A program made the position numbers and the translations under genes. A DNA stretch of 64,000 bases from Salipiger pentaromativorans (GTDB taxonomy: Bacteria > Pseudomonadota > Alphaproteobacteria > Rhodobacterales > Rhodobacteraceae). The notes beneath the pieces are model-generated. The model did no database searches. It was given only the letters and a program-made list of their open reading frames with translations, and was not told where the DNA came from. Positions 41,276 through 62,065 of the stretch are shown here, piece by piece. Numbering within the stretch: the stretch's first letter is position 1; every line of letters starts with the position of its first letter. Where the stretch lies: the NCBI RefSeq assembly GCF_024721115.1, contig NZ_JAMDHK010000001.1:494762-558761 (forward strand), in the 5' to 3' direction.

Positions 41276-41962
41276 TCACTCCTCCAGCGCGAAGACCATC
41301 GTCACCCGCGCGGTCAGCACCGATTCCCCGGCAGCCACCGGCACCGAGGACACCCGGGCCATCTCCATCATCGGCTCCGGCGCATAACCGCCGCCCGCCT
41401 CGGAGATCGACAGGACGGCGCCAAGCCCGACCCCGGCCGCCTCGGCCAGAACCCGCGCCTGCGCCATGGCGTCGGCCACCGCGTCGCGTCGCGCATCGTC
41501 CATCACCGGCCCCGGCTCCTGCAAGCCGAAGCTCAGCCCGGACAGGCGGTTGGCGCCATCCTCGGTCACCGCGCCCAGAACCTCGCCCAGCCGCGCCAGA
41601 TCGCGGACCCGAACCGTCAGGCGGTTGTTCGCCACATAGCCGGTGATCTCGCGCGCGCGGTTGCTGTTGTAATCGGTCCAGACCGGCTGCAAGCCGATGT
41701 CCGAGGTCTGGCGGTCGCGCGCGGCGATCCCCAGCGCGTCGAGCCGAGCGAGAATCGCCCCCGCCACCCGGCTGGCCTCGTTCATCGCGGCGCCGGGCTC
41801 CTTGTGCTCGGCGGTCACCCCCAGCGTCACGGTCGCCATGTCGGGCACAGCGGCGGCCCGGCCATCACCGGTAACGGTCAGTTTCGGGACCAGATCCTCG
41901 GCCAGCGCGGCGACAGGGGTCACCATCAGGGCACAGGCGGCGGCAAGGACGAGACGGCGCAT
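41276..41962 (-). CDS. SIMPL-domain (DUF541) secreted protein
   Basis: A 228-residue protein with a signal peptide (MRRLVLAAACALMVTPVAAL, cleavage after ALA). The SIMPL domain starts LTVTGDGRAAAVPDMATVTL and includes ITGYVANNRLTVRVRDLARL, characteristic of this periplasmic or outer-membrane-associated family. The molecular role is poorly known; some members are tied to oxidative stress. The stop lies just before the MOSC gene on the same strand. Confidence 0.87.
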   Translation of the reverse strand: MRRLVLAAACALMVTPVAALAEDLVPKLTVTGDGRAAAVPDMATVTLGVTAEHKEPGAAMNEASRVAGAILARLDALGIAARDRQTSDIGLQPVWTDYNSNRAREITGYVANNRLTVRVRDLARLGEVLGAVTEDGANRLSGLSFGLQEPGPVMDDARRDAVADAMAQARVLAEAAGVGLGAVLSISEAGGGYAPEPMMEMARVSSVPVAAGESVLTARVTMVFALEE

Positions 41963-42130: not shown

Positions 42131-44899
42131 ATGGCACCGAATTTCGCGCTATCCCTTTCTTTCGATGGCATCGCCCTGCTGCGCCGTGCCGTCACCGGCT
42201 GGATGCGGCTCGACGCGGTGGCGCTGGACAGCGACGACCTCGACGGCGCGTTGCAGGCGCTGCGCGATCGCGCGCTGGAACTGGCGCCGGACGGGGCGCA
42301 GGTTCTGCTGGTCCTGCCCAACGAGCAGATTCGCTATCTCGACCTGCCCGACCCCGGCGGCGACCGCGCAGAGCGCGAGACCGCCGTCCGCGCCGCGCTC
42401 GACGGCGCCACCCCCTATGCGGTGGAAGAGCTGGTCTTCGACTGGTCGCAAAGCGGCGACCGCCTGCTCGCCGCCGCCGTGGCACGCGAGACGCTGGAAG
42501 AGGCTGACGGGTTCATCCGGGCGCATGGCTTCGATCCGGTGAGCTTTACCGCGCTCCCGCCGGAGGAGGCGTTCGAGGGCCCGCTGTTCCTCGGCGCCGC
42601 CCCCGGCTGGACCGGCGCCGCGCCGGACCGGCTGCCGCAGCCGCTGCGGATCGTCGAGGGCACGCCGGATCTGCCCTGGTCGCGCCCGCGCGCCGAGCCG
42701 CAGCAGCCCCCGGCCGCAGACGCGCCGCCCCAACCGGAACCAGTGGCCGTTCCGCCGGCCCCGCCCCCGGGCCCGGCGCCGAAGCCGACCCCCACGCCGG
42801 TCGCCCCTCCGCCGTCCGAACCCGCCCGCGTTGCGCCGCCGACGGCTCCTGCCGCGCCAACCGCGCCCGTGGCGCCCGAGCCACCCGCGCGGGTCAGCTT
42901 TGGCGAGGGCATGTTCGGCCCCGGCGGCAACGCCCGCGCCGACACGATCCCCGCCCCGCAGCAGGAAACGCCGGTGCTGCGCCCGGTCAAGGCCCCCGCA
43001 CGCACGGCCAGTGGCGCCCCGGCAGTGCCGCTCTCGGGCGCCGACACGACAGCGCCCGGCCCGGCCCCCAGTTTCTCCAGCATCCGCGCCACCCGCGATC
43101 TGCCGGCGACACCGGCAGCCCCGGCGCCGGCCTCCGTCAGCGACGCGCCCAGAACCGCCCCGAGGCTGCAAGGCCCCGAGCTGCCCGCCCAACCGGCCCG
43201 CGACGCGACCCCGGCCACACCGGCGGCTCCCGCTCCGGACCGCGACAGCATGGCCAGCCGCGCGCTGTCGGCATTGTCGCGCCGCCGGCGCAGCGAGAGC
43301 GCCGCGCCCGACCCCGAACCGGCCCCCTCCGCAGATAGCACCCCGCACCCCGAGCCGGCCCCCAGGAAAACCCGCGCGCCGGCCAGGAAGGCAAGTTCCA
43401 AGGCCGCCGCCATGCTGAAATCGCCGGGCAAGGCCGCGGCGCAGATCGCCGCCATGCGCCGCGACCCGGCGCCCACTCCCACGCCGCCCCCGACAATGGC
43501 GCCCGCTGCCGCCGGCGCCGCCGTCCTCGACCCCGATGAGGAACGCCGCCGCATGACCGTCTTCGGCGCGCGGCGCGAAGAGCAGATCGGCGGCAAGCCG
43601 CGCTATCTTGGGCTGATGCTCACCGCCGTGCTGCTGCTGTTCCTCGCCGGCGTCGCTGCCTGGGCCTCGGTCTTCCTCGACGAAGGGCTGTCGCGCTTCT
43701 TCGGCCCGAAAGATCCCGCGGAAGAGGCGATTGCCGCCGCGCTGCCGGACGAGGCCCTGCCGCTGCCGCCCCCGGCCACCGAGGCCGAGGAAGAGGCGGA
43801 AGACACCGAGATGGCCGCGCTCGATCCGGCCCCGGTGCAGACCGATGCCGCCACATCGGCGCTGAGCCAGCCCATCCTGCCCCAGGCGCTGACCCCGGAA
43901 GAGGCCGCCGCGCGCTACGCCGCGACCGGCATCTGGCAACGCGCGCCGACCGCACCGCTGGAACCGGCGCAAAGCGGGGTGGACGATCTCTATATCGCCT
44001 CGGTCGATCCCCAGGTGGGCCAGTTCGATGCCGTGGCACTGCCGCGGACCGCCATCGACCATGACGATCTTGCGCCTCAGCCGGTGGCGCTGCCGCCCGG
44101 CCCGGACGTGCGGTTCGATCTCGATGACAAGGGTTTGGTGCGCGCGACGCCCGAGGGCGCCGTCTCGCCCGACGGGGTACGCGTGTTTGCCGGCCTGCCG
44201 CCGCAGGTGCCGCCGCTGCGCGGTGTCGCCGAGACGCCGGCGGCTCCGGAGCAGGAGGCCGCCCCGCAGGCCGCGCCCGCGGCCGATCCGGCACAGGACC
44301 AGCTTCGCCAGCTCCGCCCGCAGCCCCGGCCCGACGATCTGGTGGAGCAGACCGAACGCGCGAATCTCGGCGGGATCTCGATCGCCGAGCTGGCGGGCAA
44401 GCGCCCCGCGATGCGCCCGCCCAGTGCGCAGGAGCAGGCGGCAGAGGCGCAGCAGGACGCCCCTCAGCAAGAGCCCACCGCCGAAGCCCCCGCCCCCGCG
44501 ACACCGCCGGCCACGGCGCTGGCGGTTGCGACCTCGCTGCAACCGCAGACACGGCCGCGCAACATGGACACCATCGTCCAGCGCGCCGATCGCGAGACCG
44601 TGCAGACCGCCTCTGCCGGGCCGATCCGGATCCAGCCCGGCCCCAAGGTGCCGCAGAACGCGAATGTGGCCAAGGAGGCCACGGTCCGGAACCAGATCAA
44701 CCTGCGCGAGATGAACCTGATCGGCGTCTTCGGCAAACCCTCGAGCCGCCGCGCCCTGGTACGCCTGTCGAACGGACGGCTACAGAACGTCAAGGTCGGC
44801 GACCGGCTCGACGGCGGGCGCGTTGCCGCCATCGGCGAATCCGAGCTTCAGCTTACCAAGGGCGGACGGAACATCGTTCTGAGGATGCCGAGGGGCTAA
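42131..44899 (+). CDS. GspL/PilM-like and GspC/PilP-like fusion membrane protein
   Basis: A 922-residue protein in four parts. Residues 1-150 resemble the actin-like cytoplasmic domain of GspL/PilM (LLVLPNEQIRYLDLPDPG, AALDGATPYAVEELVFDWSQ). Residues about 165-490 are Pro/Ala-rich and probably disordered. A single transmembrane helix is at about 493-515 (LMLTAVLLLFLAGVAAWASV). Another long acidic Pro/Ala-rich stretch leads to residues 856-922 (NLREMNLIGVFGKPSSRRAL then VRLSNGRLQNVKVGDRLDGG), like the periplasmic GspC/PilP homology domain. These domains normally belong to separate secretion or pilus proteins. No other such genes are nearby. Confidence 0.72.
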   Translation: MAPNFALSLSFDGIALLRRAVTGWMRLDAVALDSDDLDGALQALRDRALELAPDGAQVLLVLPNEQIRYLDLPDPGGDRAERETAVRAALDGATPYAVEELVFDWSQSGDRLLAAAVARETLEEADGFIRAHGFDPVSFTALPPEEAFEGPLFLGAAPGWTGAAPDRLPQPLRIVEGTPDLPWSRPRAEPQQPPAADAPPQPEPVAVPPAPPPGPAPKPTPTPVAPPPSEPARVAPPTAPAAPTAPVAPEPPARVSFGEGMFGPGGNARADTIPAPQQETPVLRPVKAPARTASGAPAVPLSGADTTAPGPAPSFSSIRATRDLPATPAAPAPASVSDAPRTAPRLQGPELPAQPARDATPATPAAPAPDRDSMASRALSALSRRRRSESAAPDPEPAPSADSTPHPEPAPRKTRAPARKASSKAAAMLKSPGKAAAQIAAMRRDPAPTPTPPPTMAPAAAGAAVLDPDEERRRMTVFGARREEQIGGKPRYLGLMLTAVLLLFLAGVAAWASVFLDEGLSRFFGPKDPAEEAIAAALPDEALPLPPPATEAEEEAEDTEMAALDPAPVQTDAATSALSQPILPQALTPEEAAARYAATGIWQRAPTAPLEPAQSGVDDLYIASVDPQVGQFDAVALPRTAIDHDDLAPQPVALPPGPDVRFDLDDKGLVRATPEGAVSPDGVRVFAGLPPQVPPLRGVAETPAAPEQEAAPQAAPAADPAQDQLRQLRPQPRPDDLVEQTERANLGGISIAELAGKRPAMRPPSAQEQAAEAQQDAPQQEPTAEAPAPATPPATALAVATSLQPQTRPRNMDTIVQRADRETVQTASAGPIRIQPGPKVPQNANVAKEATVRNQINLREMNLIGVFGKPSSRRALVRLSNGRLQNVKVGDRLDGGRVAAIGESELQLTKGGRNIVLRMPRG

Positions 44900-53920: not shown

Positions 53921-54299
53921 CGCAAAGCGCAGACGCAGGCTCTCGATGACCTCGCTCATCGACGTGATCTTTCTGCTGCTGCTGTTCTTCATGCTGACCT
54001 CGACCTTCACCCGCTTTTCCGAGGTCGAACTGGCCGCCGCCGGCAGCGGCGCGGCGCCGGCACCCTCGGAGCGCCCGCTGTTCCTGCAACTCGGGCCCGA
54101 AACCGCGCGGCTCAACAGTGCCGAGGTGGCGCTGGAGGGGCTTGCCGACGCGCTCGCCGCACAGCGGGGCGACGGGGCGGCGGTGCGGCGGCTGCTGGTC
54201 GCGCTGCAACCGGGGGTCAGCGCGCAACGGCTGACCGACCTGCTTGTGGTACTGCGTGGCCTGCCGGGGCTGGCGCCGGTCGTGCTGGGAGCCTCGTGA
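53913..54299 (+). CDS. exbD: ExbD/TolR-family protein, first copy
   Basis: A 128-residue protein with one transmembrane helix near the N terminus (SMTSLIDVIFLLLLFFMLTS). The Asp in LIDVIFLLL is the conserved proton-carrying residue of ExbD/TolR. The periplasmic domain follows (residues 40-128). It overlaps exbB by 8 bases and the second ExbD gene by one base (TGATG). Two ExbD-like proteins in tandem suggest a mixed ExbD assembly. Confidence 0.9.
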   Translation: MRSAKRRRRLSMTSLIDVIFLLLLFFMLTSTFTRFSEVELAAAGSGAAPAPSERPLFLQLGPETARLNSAEVALEGLADALAAQRGDGAAVRRLLVALQPGVSAQRLTDLLVVLRGLPGLAPVVLGAS

Positions 54300-54688
54300 T
54301 GCGCCCGCGCCGTCCCCGCCCGCAGAGCGAGCCGACCATCGCGCTGATCAACATCGTCTTCCTGATGCTGATCTTCTTCCTCGTGGCCGGCACGCTGGCG
54401 CAGCCGCTGGACCCGGCGTTGCGGCTGGTCAGCACCCGCGATCTCGACGGCAGCCCGCCGCCGCCCGACGCGCTGGTGGTGCATCCGGACGGCGCGCTGA
54501 GCCACAAGGGGCAGGTCGTGGACACGCCCGAAACCTTCCTTGCGGCGCTCGCCCCCGAGGCACGCGCGACCGTGCGGCTGGTGCCCGACCGCGACCTGCC
54601 CGCCGCCGATCTGGTGGCGGTGGCGCGGGCGTTGCGCGCGGGCGGGGCCGAAAGGGTTTTGATCGTCAGCGAAAGGGTGCTGCAATGA
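54299..54688 (+). CDS. exbD: ExbD/TolR-family protein, second copy
   Basis: A 129-residue protein of the same layout: basic N terminus (MRPRRPRPQSEPTIALINIV), one hydrophobic helix (FLMLIFFLVAGTLAQPLDPA) and a periplasmic domain. At the position of the catalytic Asp of ExbD this copy reads ALINIVFLMLIFF, with Asn in place of Asp, so it probably cannot carry protons itself. It starts at ATG 54299, one base inside the previous stop, and overlaps tonB by four bases. Confidence 0.88.
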   Translation: MRPRRPRPQSEPTIALINIVFLMLIFFLVAGTLAQPLDPALRLVSTRDLDGSPPPPDALVVHPDGALSHKGQVVDTPETFLAALAPEARATVRLVPDRDLPAADLVAVARALRAGGAERVLIVSERVLQ

Positions 54689-55680
54689 TCGCGAATTCCC
54701 GCCTTCTGAAAGCGGTGGCACTGCTGCTGGCCAGCAGCGCCCATGGCGCGCTGGCGCTGGCGCTGCTGCCCGACAACCCACCGGTCGAGATCGAAGGCTC
54801 GGACGGCGCGCCCGAGGCACGGGTCGGATCCAGCTTTGCCGACATGGCAACGGGCACGCTCAGCGCCGAGCCATCCCCCGAGCCGGTCGCGCCGCAGCCG
54901 GTGCAGGAGGCGGCGCTGACCCCGCTCACACCGCCCGAACCGCAACCGCCCATCGCGGCGGAGCCCGCGCCCCGGCCCCCCGTCCCCGAGGCGCAGTCTG
55001 CCGAAGCGCCGCCCGTGGCCGAGCACGTCCAGCCCGCCGCGCCGGCACAAACGAGCGCCCCGCTGCCCGCGCCCGACGCCGTGGCCGCACTGCGCCCCGA
55101 AACGCCCGAGGCGGCCCGCCCGGCGGTCCCCGCCGAAACCCTCGAGGCCGAAGAGAAGGACGTGCCGCCCAACGCGCTGGCGCGGTCGCTTCGGCCCATC
55201 GAGCGCCCCGAGACCCTGCGCAAACCCGCGCCCGCGCCGGCCCCGAAAGCCGCCGCGCGCCCGAAGACGCAGACCAAGACCGCCAAGGCGCAGCCCAAGG
55301 CCGCCCCCGCGCCCAGAGGCAATGCAGACCGCAATGCCAAGGCCGGTCAGGAGCAGGGCAGCCAGAGCGCCAAGGCAACCCGGAGCGGCGCCGGCGGCAA
55401 GGCCAAGCAATCGGGCAATGCGGCGGCCAGCAACTATCCCGGTCAGGTGATGCGGAAGCTCTCGCGCGTGCCGCGCCCGCGCATGAATGTGCGCGGCGCC
55501 ACCGTTGTGGCCTTCCGGATCTCGGGCACCGGCGGGCTGGCCGGGGTCTCGGTCGCCCGCAGCTCGGGCTCGTCGGCACTGGACAGCGCAGCGCTGAAGG
55601 TCGTGCAGCGGGCGGCGCCCTTCCCGGCGCCGCCCGCCGGCGCGCAGCGCAGCTTTTCCGTGCAGATCAAGGGCCGCTGA
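54685..55680 (+). CDS. tonB: TonB-family energy transducer
   Basis: A 331-residue protein. MIANSRLLKAVALLLASSAH begins the N-terminal membrane anchor with the conserved Ser/His (SSAHGALALALL). Residues about 60-245 are Pro/Ala/Glu-rich, spanning the periplasm. The C-terminal TonB domain starts near residue 250 (NYPGQVMRKLSRVPRPRMNV) and ends VVQRAAPFPAPPAGAQRSF. It transmits proton-motive energy from ExbBD to outer-membrane receptors. ATG at 54685 overlaps the exbD stop as ATGA. It is the last gene of the operon. Confidence 0.9.
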   Translation: MIANSRLLKAVALLLASSAHGALALALLPDNPPVEIEGSDGAPEARVGSSFADMATGTLSAEPSPEPVAPQPVQEAALTPLTPPEPQPPIAAEPAPRPPVPEAQSAEAPPVAEHVQPAAPAQTSAPLPAPDAVAALRPETPEAARPAVPAETLEAEEKDVPPNALARSLRPIERPETLRKPAPAPAPKAAARPKTQTKTAKAQPKAAPAPRGNADRNAKAGQEQGSQSAKATRSGAGGKAKQSGNAAASNYPGQVMRKLSRVPRPRMNVRGATVVAFRISGTGGLAGVSVARSSGSSALDSAALKVVQRAAPFPAPPAGAQRSFSVQIKGR

Positions 55681-60022: not shown

Positions 60023-62065
60023 TCAGAAGAGTTTGGTGAGGCTGACCTTGAAGGTCCGGCCTGGCGCCTTGCGCGACGACAGATTCCCCGTGTAGTCGAG
60101 ATCAAAGGCATTCTCTATGCCAAAACGGATCTCGGTCCCTTCAAACGCCCCGGTCTGCGGCTTGTAGGTCGCGCGCAGATTGTGGACCGTGTAGTCGGAC
60201 AGATCGTTCAATGTGGCGTCGCGGGCATCCGCCGTATGCCGCACCTCCCAGCTCAGATCCAGCGTGTCGTTCCAGCGCTTGCCCAGCGTCAGCCCCAGTG
60301 TGGTCGCGGGCTGGTTCCGCCAATCCTCATCGGCGAAGCCATCGGCATATTCCGTGCCCTGCCCGGTGGCGCCGTGGAAATCCACATAGACCCCGTTCTC
60401 AAGCCCGTAAGAGGCTTCCAGCTCGAACCCCTCGGTCTCGACCCGGTCGAGATTGACCGAGGTCGAGCCAGAGGCGGTGTAGCTGGTGATGTCCCAGAGC
60501 TCGGTCCGGTAGATGTTCCCCCGGATCGAGAAATTGTCGCCCGGCGTGAACAGATCCGTGCCCGCGTAAGACGCCCCCAGTTCGAAGGTGTGGGATTTCT
60601 CGGAGGTGGTCATGCGCCACTCGTTGGCGGCGCTGCCGCCCAGATCGTCGATGATCGGCAGACCTTCGGTATAGGCGGCGCTGCCGAAGACCGACAGCCC
60701 GTTGCCGAAATCATAGGCCACCGCCAGACCGCCCATCAGCGCGTCGTTCTCATAGCTTCCGTAGCTGGCCGCGCTCTCGACCTTGGATTTCTCGTAGCGC
60801 AGCGCCGGGGTGATGGTGAACCCGCCCGCGCGCATCTCGTCGATCAGGAACAGCGCCAGACGGTTGTCCTCGCCCCCCGGCGCGCTGCCCGCCTCGTTGT
60901 CGGCGCGCACCCGGCGCGAGACCTCGACGCCGCTGCGCAGCTGGTGGTCCACCACGCCGGTCTGGAACAGCGCCACGTTCTTCACCGTGAACTTGGTGGT
61001 CTCATAGCGCTGCTCGGCGTTCACCGTGGGTTCGAGGAAGGGCCAGGTCGGCGTGCCCTCCAGCGGCGAGGAGCCCGGCACATAGCTGTAGTCGATCTGC
61101 TGATCGGCGTAAGACAGGGTCGCGGTCAGATCGACCAGATCGCTGACCGGATTGTAATTGTATTCCAGCGTGGTCTGGCTCGTGTCGGTTTCGCGGTCGA
61201 CATTGCCGAAGGTGCCGCCGGTGGTGTCGAACGTGTCATAGGGCACGTCCTTGTCGTCGGCGAGCGTGCGCGAATAGGAGAAGGTCAGGCTGTGGTCGTC
61301 GTCCTGACCGAAGGTGAACTTGCCCTTGAAAAGCCCCGAGGGCGTCTCGAACCCGCTGTTGCCGATGACATTGCCGTCGCCATCGACCTGATCGTCCTGC
61401 TGCCGCCAGGTGTAGTTCAGCAGGAACTCCGCCCGCTCGGTCGGCTGCCAGGCCAGCGTGGTGGAGCTGACCGCCCCCGCCGTGTTCGAGCTGAATTCCA
61501 GCGTCTGCCCGACCCGGAACCCCGGCACCCCGCCGGTGAAATCCGAGGCGTTCTTGGTTTCGAGCTTCACCACCCCGCCGACGATGCCGGACCCATATTC
61601 GAAACTGCCCATGGTGCCGCGCAGCACCTCGACCTGACGATAGAGCAGCGGATCGGTGAAAAGCTGGGTGCCGATGCGGTACAGCTCTTCCGAGCCCACC
61701 GATGCCCCGTCCACAAGGATCGCGATCTTCTGGTCGTTGCCATAGGTGCTGTTGGCGCCGTAGCCGCGAATATTGATGCCCGAGCCCTGCGGGGTGGAAC
61801 CGTTGATCAGCGTCACGCCGGGCACGGAATCGATCAGTTCGGCGACGGTGCCCGCCTGCCGGTCCTCGATCTCCTCCCCGTCGATGGTGGTGGTCGATAC
61901 CGCGCCGCCCAGGCTCAGGTCGCGTTTGCCCGGCGTCAGGTAGAGCGTGCCGAGAAAGCCGCTCACCGTGGACAGGTCGGTGCCGGTGTCCTGCGCCAGA
62001 GCCGGCGCCGGACAAAGAGAAAGAAGAACAAGCGCGGTGCTGCCGCGCAATATGCTGCGTGTCAT
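60023..62065 (-). CDS. TonB-dependent outer-membrane receptor, probably for haem
   Basis: A 680-residue protein. MTRSILRGSTALVLLSLCPA is the signal peptide (cleavage after ALA). The plug domain (about 45-160) has GTVAELIDSVPGVTLINGST, GINIRGYGANSTYGNDQKIA and VEVLRGTMGSFEYGSGIVGG. A 22-strand-type barrel follows and ends in Phe (RTFKVSLTKLF), the outer-membrane sorting signal. Haem as ligand is inferred from divergent hmuS and hmuT. I do not identify the FRAP/NPNL haem box with confidence. An iron-type motif is in the promoter (62181-62199). Confidence 0.88.
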   Translation of the reverse strand: MTRSILRGSTALVLLSLCPAPALAQDTGTDLSTVSGFLGTLYLTPGKRDLSLGGAVSTTTIDGEEIEDRQAGTVAELIDSVPGVTLINGSTPQGSGINIRGYGANSTYGNDQKIAILVDGASVGSEELYRIGTQLFTDPLLYRQVEVLRGTMGSFEYGSGIVGGVVKLETKNASDFTGGVPGFRVGQTLEFSSNTAGAVSSTTLAWQPTERAEFLLNYTWRQQDDQVDGDGNVIGNSGFETPSGLFKGKFTFGQDDDHSLTFSYSRTLADDKDVPYDTFDTTGGTFGNVDRETDTSQTTLEYNYNPVSDLVDLTATLSYADQQIDYSYVPGSSPLEGTPTWPFLEPTVNAEQRYETTKFTVKNVALFQTGVVDHQLRSGVEVSRRVRADNEAGSAPGGEDNRLALFLIDEMRAGGFTITPALRYEKSKVESAASYGSYENDALMGGLAVAYDFGNGLSVFGSAAYTEGLPIIDDLGGSAANEWRMTTSEKSHTFELGASYAGTDLFTPGDNFSIRGNIYRTELWDITSYTASGSTSVNLDRVETEGFELEASYGLENGVYVDFHGATGQGTEYADGFADEDWRNQPATTLGLTLGKRWNDTLDLSWEVRHTADARDATLNDLSDYTVHNLRATYKPQTGAFEGTEIRFGIENAFDLDYTGNLSSRKAPGRTFKVSLTKLF

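Follow-up and report, generated by a model that had tools for sequence, protein, structure and literature searches.

A widespread Rhodobacteraceae protein with predicted GspL/PilM-like and GspC/PilP-like ends

What does a protein do that carries parts of a secretion or pilus platform at both ends, with no such machine encoded around it? This question is raised by a stretch of 64,000 nucleotides from Salipiger pentaromativorans (hereafter, the window). An earlier note on this DNA had described a single 922-residue protein with a GspL-like cytoplasmic start, long proline- and alanine-rich stretches, one transmembrane helix and a GspC/PilP-like periplasmic end, and had suggested that it could be an orphan cross-envelope adaptor.

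Two platform-type ends in one protein

Open reading frame analysis bore out the single protein. It is encoded by an ATG-initiated frame of 922 residues (Table 1), whose start codon agrees with that of its relatives (MKPxFAL in most, MAPNFAL in the window copy). The 13 named relatives come from Rhodobacteraceae or their MAGs, including Gemmobacter, Tabrizicola, Roseinatronobacter, Rhodovulum and Defluviimonas, some of which we take to belong to this family. As the note had proposed, there is one candidate membrane helix, which is the sole hydrophobic segment (residues 493–511), and proline/alanine-rich stretches are present on both sides of it. The charge around the helix suggests that the N-terminus lies inside the cell. 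The whole protein had no match among PDB sequences up to an E-value of 1, and scans with family models found no signalling domain in it.

An AlphaFold model of residues 1–165, based on a 13-sequence alignment, had a mean pLDDT of 90.4 and a pTM of 0.84. When this model was compared with the PDB by Foldseek, the best 15 rows were all GspL/EpsL or PilM (E-values of 2.1e-9 to 1.7e-6; row 13 was assigned to PilM by its chain name), and FtsA came next. The VIA comparison gave Z-scores of 11.8 for GspL (148 residues, 3.6 Å), 10.8 for PilM (150 residues, 3.2 Å) and 8.5 for FtsA. The predicted fold thus agreed with the GspL-like start, but covered no more than half of a GspL/PilM domain. The folded part has about 159 residues, of which 148–150 were aligned out of the 226–352 in GspL/PilM structures. 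The PilM chains 5eoy_B, 5eox_A and 5eq6_B aligned only over residues 10–173 of about 350; for the other chains the alignment ended at 213–365, with the last strand or helix also matched, yet 150 residues at most were matched. Following the subdomain names of the actin fold as we apply them here, subdomains 1A and 1C were present, whereas subdomain 2, which serves nucleotide binding in PilM, was absent. As modeled, the N-terminal domain is half of a PilM/GspL domain, with 1A/1C kept and subdomain 2 missing, and because of this loss it would presumably no longer bind ATP.

The T2SSL and PilM family models did not match the window's own N-terminal domain, and matched 3 and 1 of the 13 family members, respectively, each time weakly. 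Outside the family, the N-terminal profile matched a 385-residue protein in genome G316 (E-value of 1.6e-5, calculated per genome among 385). This protein has a PilN domain and adjoins a T2SSM_b gene, and on these grounds it appears to be a genuine GspL. Aligned with it by hhalign, the N-terminal domain gave 90.3% and an E-value of 1.5e-6 over 126 columns. A profile search of PDB sequences also returned consensus TPR proteins, up to 4.7e-14. We rejected this match as an artefact, because single repeats scored only 0.7–7.9 bits and the total came from adding them up, and because the model shows a fold other than TPR. A weak Pfam match to TPR_CcmH_CycH was likewise rejected as an artefact.

The model of residues 826–922, based on an 11-sequence alignment, reached a pLDDT of 72.2 and a pTM of 0.53; its residues 1–31 were mostly below 50 and its blocks 41–90 at 85–90. 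Foldseek ranks 1–6 were PilP or GspC (E-values of 7e-4 to 0.05, only the first below 0.001). By VIA, the HR domain of ETEC GspC had a Z-score of 9.8 (60 residues, 1.6 Å), followed by PilP (9.0), a Dot/Icm chain (7.3) and GspB (6.2). The C-terminal profile matched GspC (0.02) and PilP (0.033) weakly among PDB sequences. On the window protein itself, PilP (8e-4; 19.8 bits versus a cut-off of 25.6), pilP_fam (6.5e-5; 23.9 versus 34.65), GspC_delta (8e-4; 19.2 versus 150) and SctD (2.1e-3) all stayed below their curated cut-offs. Across the family, the Pfam PilP model matched 11 of 11 members (best E-value, 3.8e-6) and T2SSC matched 4 of 11. The C-terminal domain is thus predicted, in a model of middling confidence, to have the beta fold of GspC-HR/PilP, in line with the periplasmic end read from the sequence before. 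These scores do not tell a T2SS from a T4P origin for either end.

Table 1. Features of the 922-residue protein, neighbouring genes of the window and stand-alone C-domain frames. Positions are those of the window unless a contig or locus is named.
Feature	Position	Strand	Basis or remark
Whole 922-residue protein, stop codon included	42131..44899	+	Open reading frame; relatives found
Residues 1–159, half actin-like GspL/PilM domain, predicted cytoplasmic	42131..42607	+	Model, structure comparison, hhalign
Residues 160–492, proline/alanine-rich linker, predicted cytoplasmic	42608..43606	+	Sequence; 11–628 residues in 45 relatives
Residues 493–511, predicted transmembrane helix	43607..43663	+	Hydropathy and charge only
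Residues 512–843, proline/alanine-rich linker, predicted periplasmic	43664..44659	+	Part before the C-domain profile match, 275–691 residues in 45 relatives
Residues 729–734, RPQPRP, first RPxxRP motif	44315..44332	+	Sequence
Residues 758–763, RPAMRP, second RPxxRP motif	44402..44419	+	Sequence
Residues 844–853, short VAxxAT helix ahead of the C-domain	44660..44689	+	Low model confidence; also in stand-alone copies
Residues 857–922, predicted GspC-HR/PilP-type beta-domain	44699..44896	+	Model, structure comparison, family profiles
SIMPL-domain gene	41276–41962	-	Divergent from the 922-residue protein gene
TonB-type gene	54244–55680	+	
TonB-dependent receptor gene	60023–62065	-	
Small stand-alone C-domain proteins	Own genome, contig C7 122015–122254 (L120, L130); L064 7985–8362; L065 7588–8025; L117–L128		
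486-residue frame with weak C-domain match, genome G012	L129 298–1755		

Conservation of the layout and distribution of the family

We compared 52 loci: the window, L001–L013, and 38 loci (L066–L103) hand-picked from 196 genomes, outliers included; the count leaves aside L064 and L065, which were retrieved because of the small stand-alone protein. Both end domains lay in one open frame in 45 loci. In four loci (L003, L007, L010 and L084) the sequence was interrupted by the end of a contig or by unreadable bases, and in three (L071, L083 and L097) the two ends were in different overlapping frames, through either assembly error or a real frameshift. Between the two ends, the 19-residue stretch of highest hydrophobicity scored above 1.6 in 42 of the 45 proteins (1.54 in L011, 1.48 in L077 and 1.27 in L078), and in 44 the net charge was more positive on the N-terminal side of the helix than on the C-terminal side. 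Median lengths were 279 residues for the inner linker and 362 for the outer linker; over the ranges given in Table 1, the outer one never fell below 275.

The outer linkers contained 97 copies of RP-x(1-3)-RP, whereas 500 shuffles gave 3.8 on average and never more than 12; given the kinship of the 45 proteins, this comparison overstates independence and does not count independent events. The motif was present in the outer linkers of 40 proteins, with at least two copies in 34, most commonly as LA[S/G]LRPxxRP. By contrast, the inner linkers had 3 copies against 3.9 expected.

The N-terminal domain was present in all 196 sampled Rhodobacterales genomes: in 194 by profile search and in two (G110 and G141) through the ORF set. 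The apparent absence from these two was not true, as the domain sits in the frame of the C-terminal domain (E-values of 5e-8 and 7e-8). The C-terminal domain was found in 195 genomes, G185 having the N-terminal domain and no C-terminal match. The sample spans 87 genera carrying the protein, all from one family, so that order and family are not separable. Identity to the window copy was 41–50% for the N-terminal and 47–64% for the C-terminal domain. Among 385 genomes sampled across the class, there were seven N-terminal matches: five in family members, and two others, both weak, in the remaining 380 alphaproteobacterial genomes. The idea of an orphan therefore held for T2SS and T4P genes among the window ORFs scanned, and was too narrow, given that the protein occurs across the sampled family.

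Gene neighbourhood, secretins and stand-alone C-domains

Scans of 30 other window ORFs, a part of all window ORFs that includes shadow frames, found no T2SS or pilus family (limits of E 0.01, 1e-5 and 1e-5), so the earlier remark that such genes are missing nearby stands for these frames. As to partner genes elsewhere, PilN had no match anywhere in the genome. One secretin match was found, inside a Tad pilus cluster with TadA-, TadB/C-, CpaE- and CpaB-type genes; the genome does encode one type IV filament system in this pilus. The cluster lies on contig C7 and the gene of the 922-residue protein on contig C11, indicating that the gene is not in or near it.

Immediately beside the protein's gene, the window carries a divergent SIMPL-domain gene (Table 1). 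A SIMPL gene was found in the opposite orientation near the protein in 33 of 51 loci, upstream in 30 and labelled downstream in three, a label probably due to stop-to-stop frames that extend far upstream. A Cys/Met PLP-enzyme gene was upstream in 37 of the 51. The downstream neighbours were not conserved (UvrD and carboxylase in 1 of 51), and many loci end before that place. A TonB-dependent receptor gene also lies in the window.

A secretin match was present in 188 of the 196 genomes. The eight without one (G022, G054, G055, G139, G163, G168, G172 and G185) all kept the N-terminal domain, and all but G185 kept the C-terminal domain, with both ends in one frame in six (L068–L070 and L072–L074) and in two frames in G054. 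We therefore rejected a secretin as sole partner, and the retention of the N-terminal domain in all eight genomes lacking a secretin match speaks against a secretin being all that the protein serves. Seven of the eight also lacked TadB_TadC_N, an imperfect marker that matched none of 14 control genomes (Caulobacter included) and misses G006, which has a secretin. The eighth, G172, has TadB_TadC_N, and its lack of a secretin is perhaps an assembly gap. Five of the eight, and five of the seven also without the marker, belong to one genus. Rhodobacterales lacking tad genes are reported in passages of PMC8383342. The argument is less firm against Tad than against secretin, and leaves room for contact with either where it is present. 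Weaker C-domain scores in genus g7 occurred both with and without a secretin, and therefore do not follow secretin loss.

A second C-domain match was detected in 98 of the 196 genomes, and a third in G077. We inspected 15 second matches, from 13 genomes picked for having two, plus G055 and G139. Fourteen were frames of 84–146 residues with no visible signal peptide. In 12 cases these small frames have both purF and an SDR gene as neighbours, and in the other two only one of these genes; at L122 the identity of the purF match is only 43%. The fifteenth, from G012, was a frame of 486 residues; it has a hydrophobic stretch at the N-terminus, its end matched the C-domain weakly, and PilP reached only 0.043. 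The stand-alone copy in the window's own genome matched Pfam T2SSC at 3.9e-4, below the cut-off.

A candidate cross-envelope adaptor

The protein shares the subdomain 1A/1C fold with the cytoplasmic domain of GspL (T2SS) and PilM (T4aP), a sequence link to a GspL, and, with GspL, a bitopic layout. It differs from both in having no subdomain 2 and hence no expected ATP site, in a genome without a PilN-type domain, and in a gene that, judging from the ORFs scanned, lies outside any T2SS or T4P operon. With GspC HR and PilP it shares the beta fold and the family-wide PilP matches; unlike them, its C-terminal domain closes a fusion that also includes a cytoplasmic domain, scores below the Pfam cut-off in the window copy, and persists in genomes lacking a secretin match. 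We also see in it a likeness to TonB, which likewise has a single transmembrane helix followed by a proline-rich periplasmic extension with a small domain at its end. The C-terminal fold of TonB is different, however, our protein has a large cytoplasmic part, and the TonB-type gene of the window is a separate one. The nearest relatives in kind, as far as the cited passages describe them, are the bitopic PilO2/BfpC proteins and the PilO-PilP fusions. The pilus proteins PilO2 (R64-type pili) and BfpC are also bitopic, joining an actin-like N-terminal domain in the cytoplasm to one transmembrane helix (PMC3984277), but their helix directly follows the domain and their genes are in pilus operons. 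This likeness is one of description only; PilO2/BfpC structures were absent from the Foldseek and VIA rows shown for the N-terminal domain, and PF06864 was absent from the Pfam matches. In the PilO-PilP fusions of T4P (Pseudomonas putida; a passage of PMC3169554), a PilP domain is likewise fused to another platform subunit, but the partner is PilO rather than PilM/GspL, and the fusions serve T4P.

We infer that the protein is a cross-envelope adaptor derived from the inner-membrane platform of T2SS or T4P, with a putative outer partner, working outside T2SS/T4aP and not on a secretin alone; we give this reading a probability of about one half. The N-terminal domain would dock a protein of the cytoplasm or the inner membrane and, since subdomain 2 is missing, would do so without ATP. 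The single helix, with positive charge on its N-terminal side, would place the HR domain in the periplasm, and the long proline-rich outer linker with its RPxxRP motifs would reach outward and set the reach. The HR domain might then bind a partner in the periplasm or the outer membrane, possibly through strand addition in the manner of GspC with GspD (PMC3169554). Several observations weigh against the adaptor reading: secretins are so frequent in the sample that a link to them is common even if not universal; the small stand-alone C-domains without a visible signal peptide fit poorly with a purely periplasmic role of the fold; and the C-domain was modelled with intermediate confidence, with family-model matches below cut-offs. 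A more specific version can be offered only tentatively. Here the protein would be a core cross-envelope tether of Rhodobacteraceae, made of fused T2SS/T4P platform ends and acting without secretin or filament, that contacts a new outer-envelope partner through the HR domain and the RPxxRP repeats; it would form a separate envelope system, which the stand-alone HR protein might regulate.

That the protein instead serves the Tad pilus seems rather unlikely, though it has points in its favour. The only secretin found in the genome lies in the Tad cluster, secretins occur in nearly all sampled genomes of the order, and GspC-HR binds the N0 domain of secretins (according to a passage of PMC3169554). 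The location of gene and cluster on different contigs argues against it, as do the secretin-less genomes, which all keep the N-terminal domain and, but for one, lack the imperfect Tad marker as well. An envelope sensor or regulator, whose outer domain reads the envelope state and whose inner domain relays it, with the stand-alone C-domain as cytoplasmic competitor or partner, would make use of the long flexible linkers on either side of the helix and of the small second proteins; the protein has no recognized signalling domain and half of the genomes have no second match, and we consider this role improbable. Least credible is that a lost T2SS or T4P left the protein behind as a functionless relic. 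The descent of both ends from platform subunits, the free variation of the linkers and the three of 52 loci with ends in different frames would fit this view; presence across 87 genera with conserved ends, and enrichment of the motif in the outer linkers alone, speak against it.

No description or function of a PilM/GspL–PilP/GspC fusion, or of this protein family, was found in searches of an open-access library, a scope outside which most subscription papers fall. Passages of an essential-gene study of Rhodobacter sphaeroides (PMC5513736) and of a CenKR paper (PMC9275681) showed no match to the protein. A list of 29 signature proteins of Rhodobacterales, mostly 'hypothetical', is given in a passage of PMC2241609, and the 922-residue protein may be among them.

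Taken together, these findings show parts of a secretion or pilus platform apparently outside any such machine, in a protein found in all 196 sampled genomes of its order, and the family can therefore be used to test what such domains do alone. The length limit of the outer linker and the repeated RPxxRP motif provide two short handles on the protein, which, as a putative adaptor, probably joins the inside of the cell to the outer envelope by a link of a new kind.
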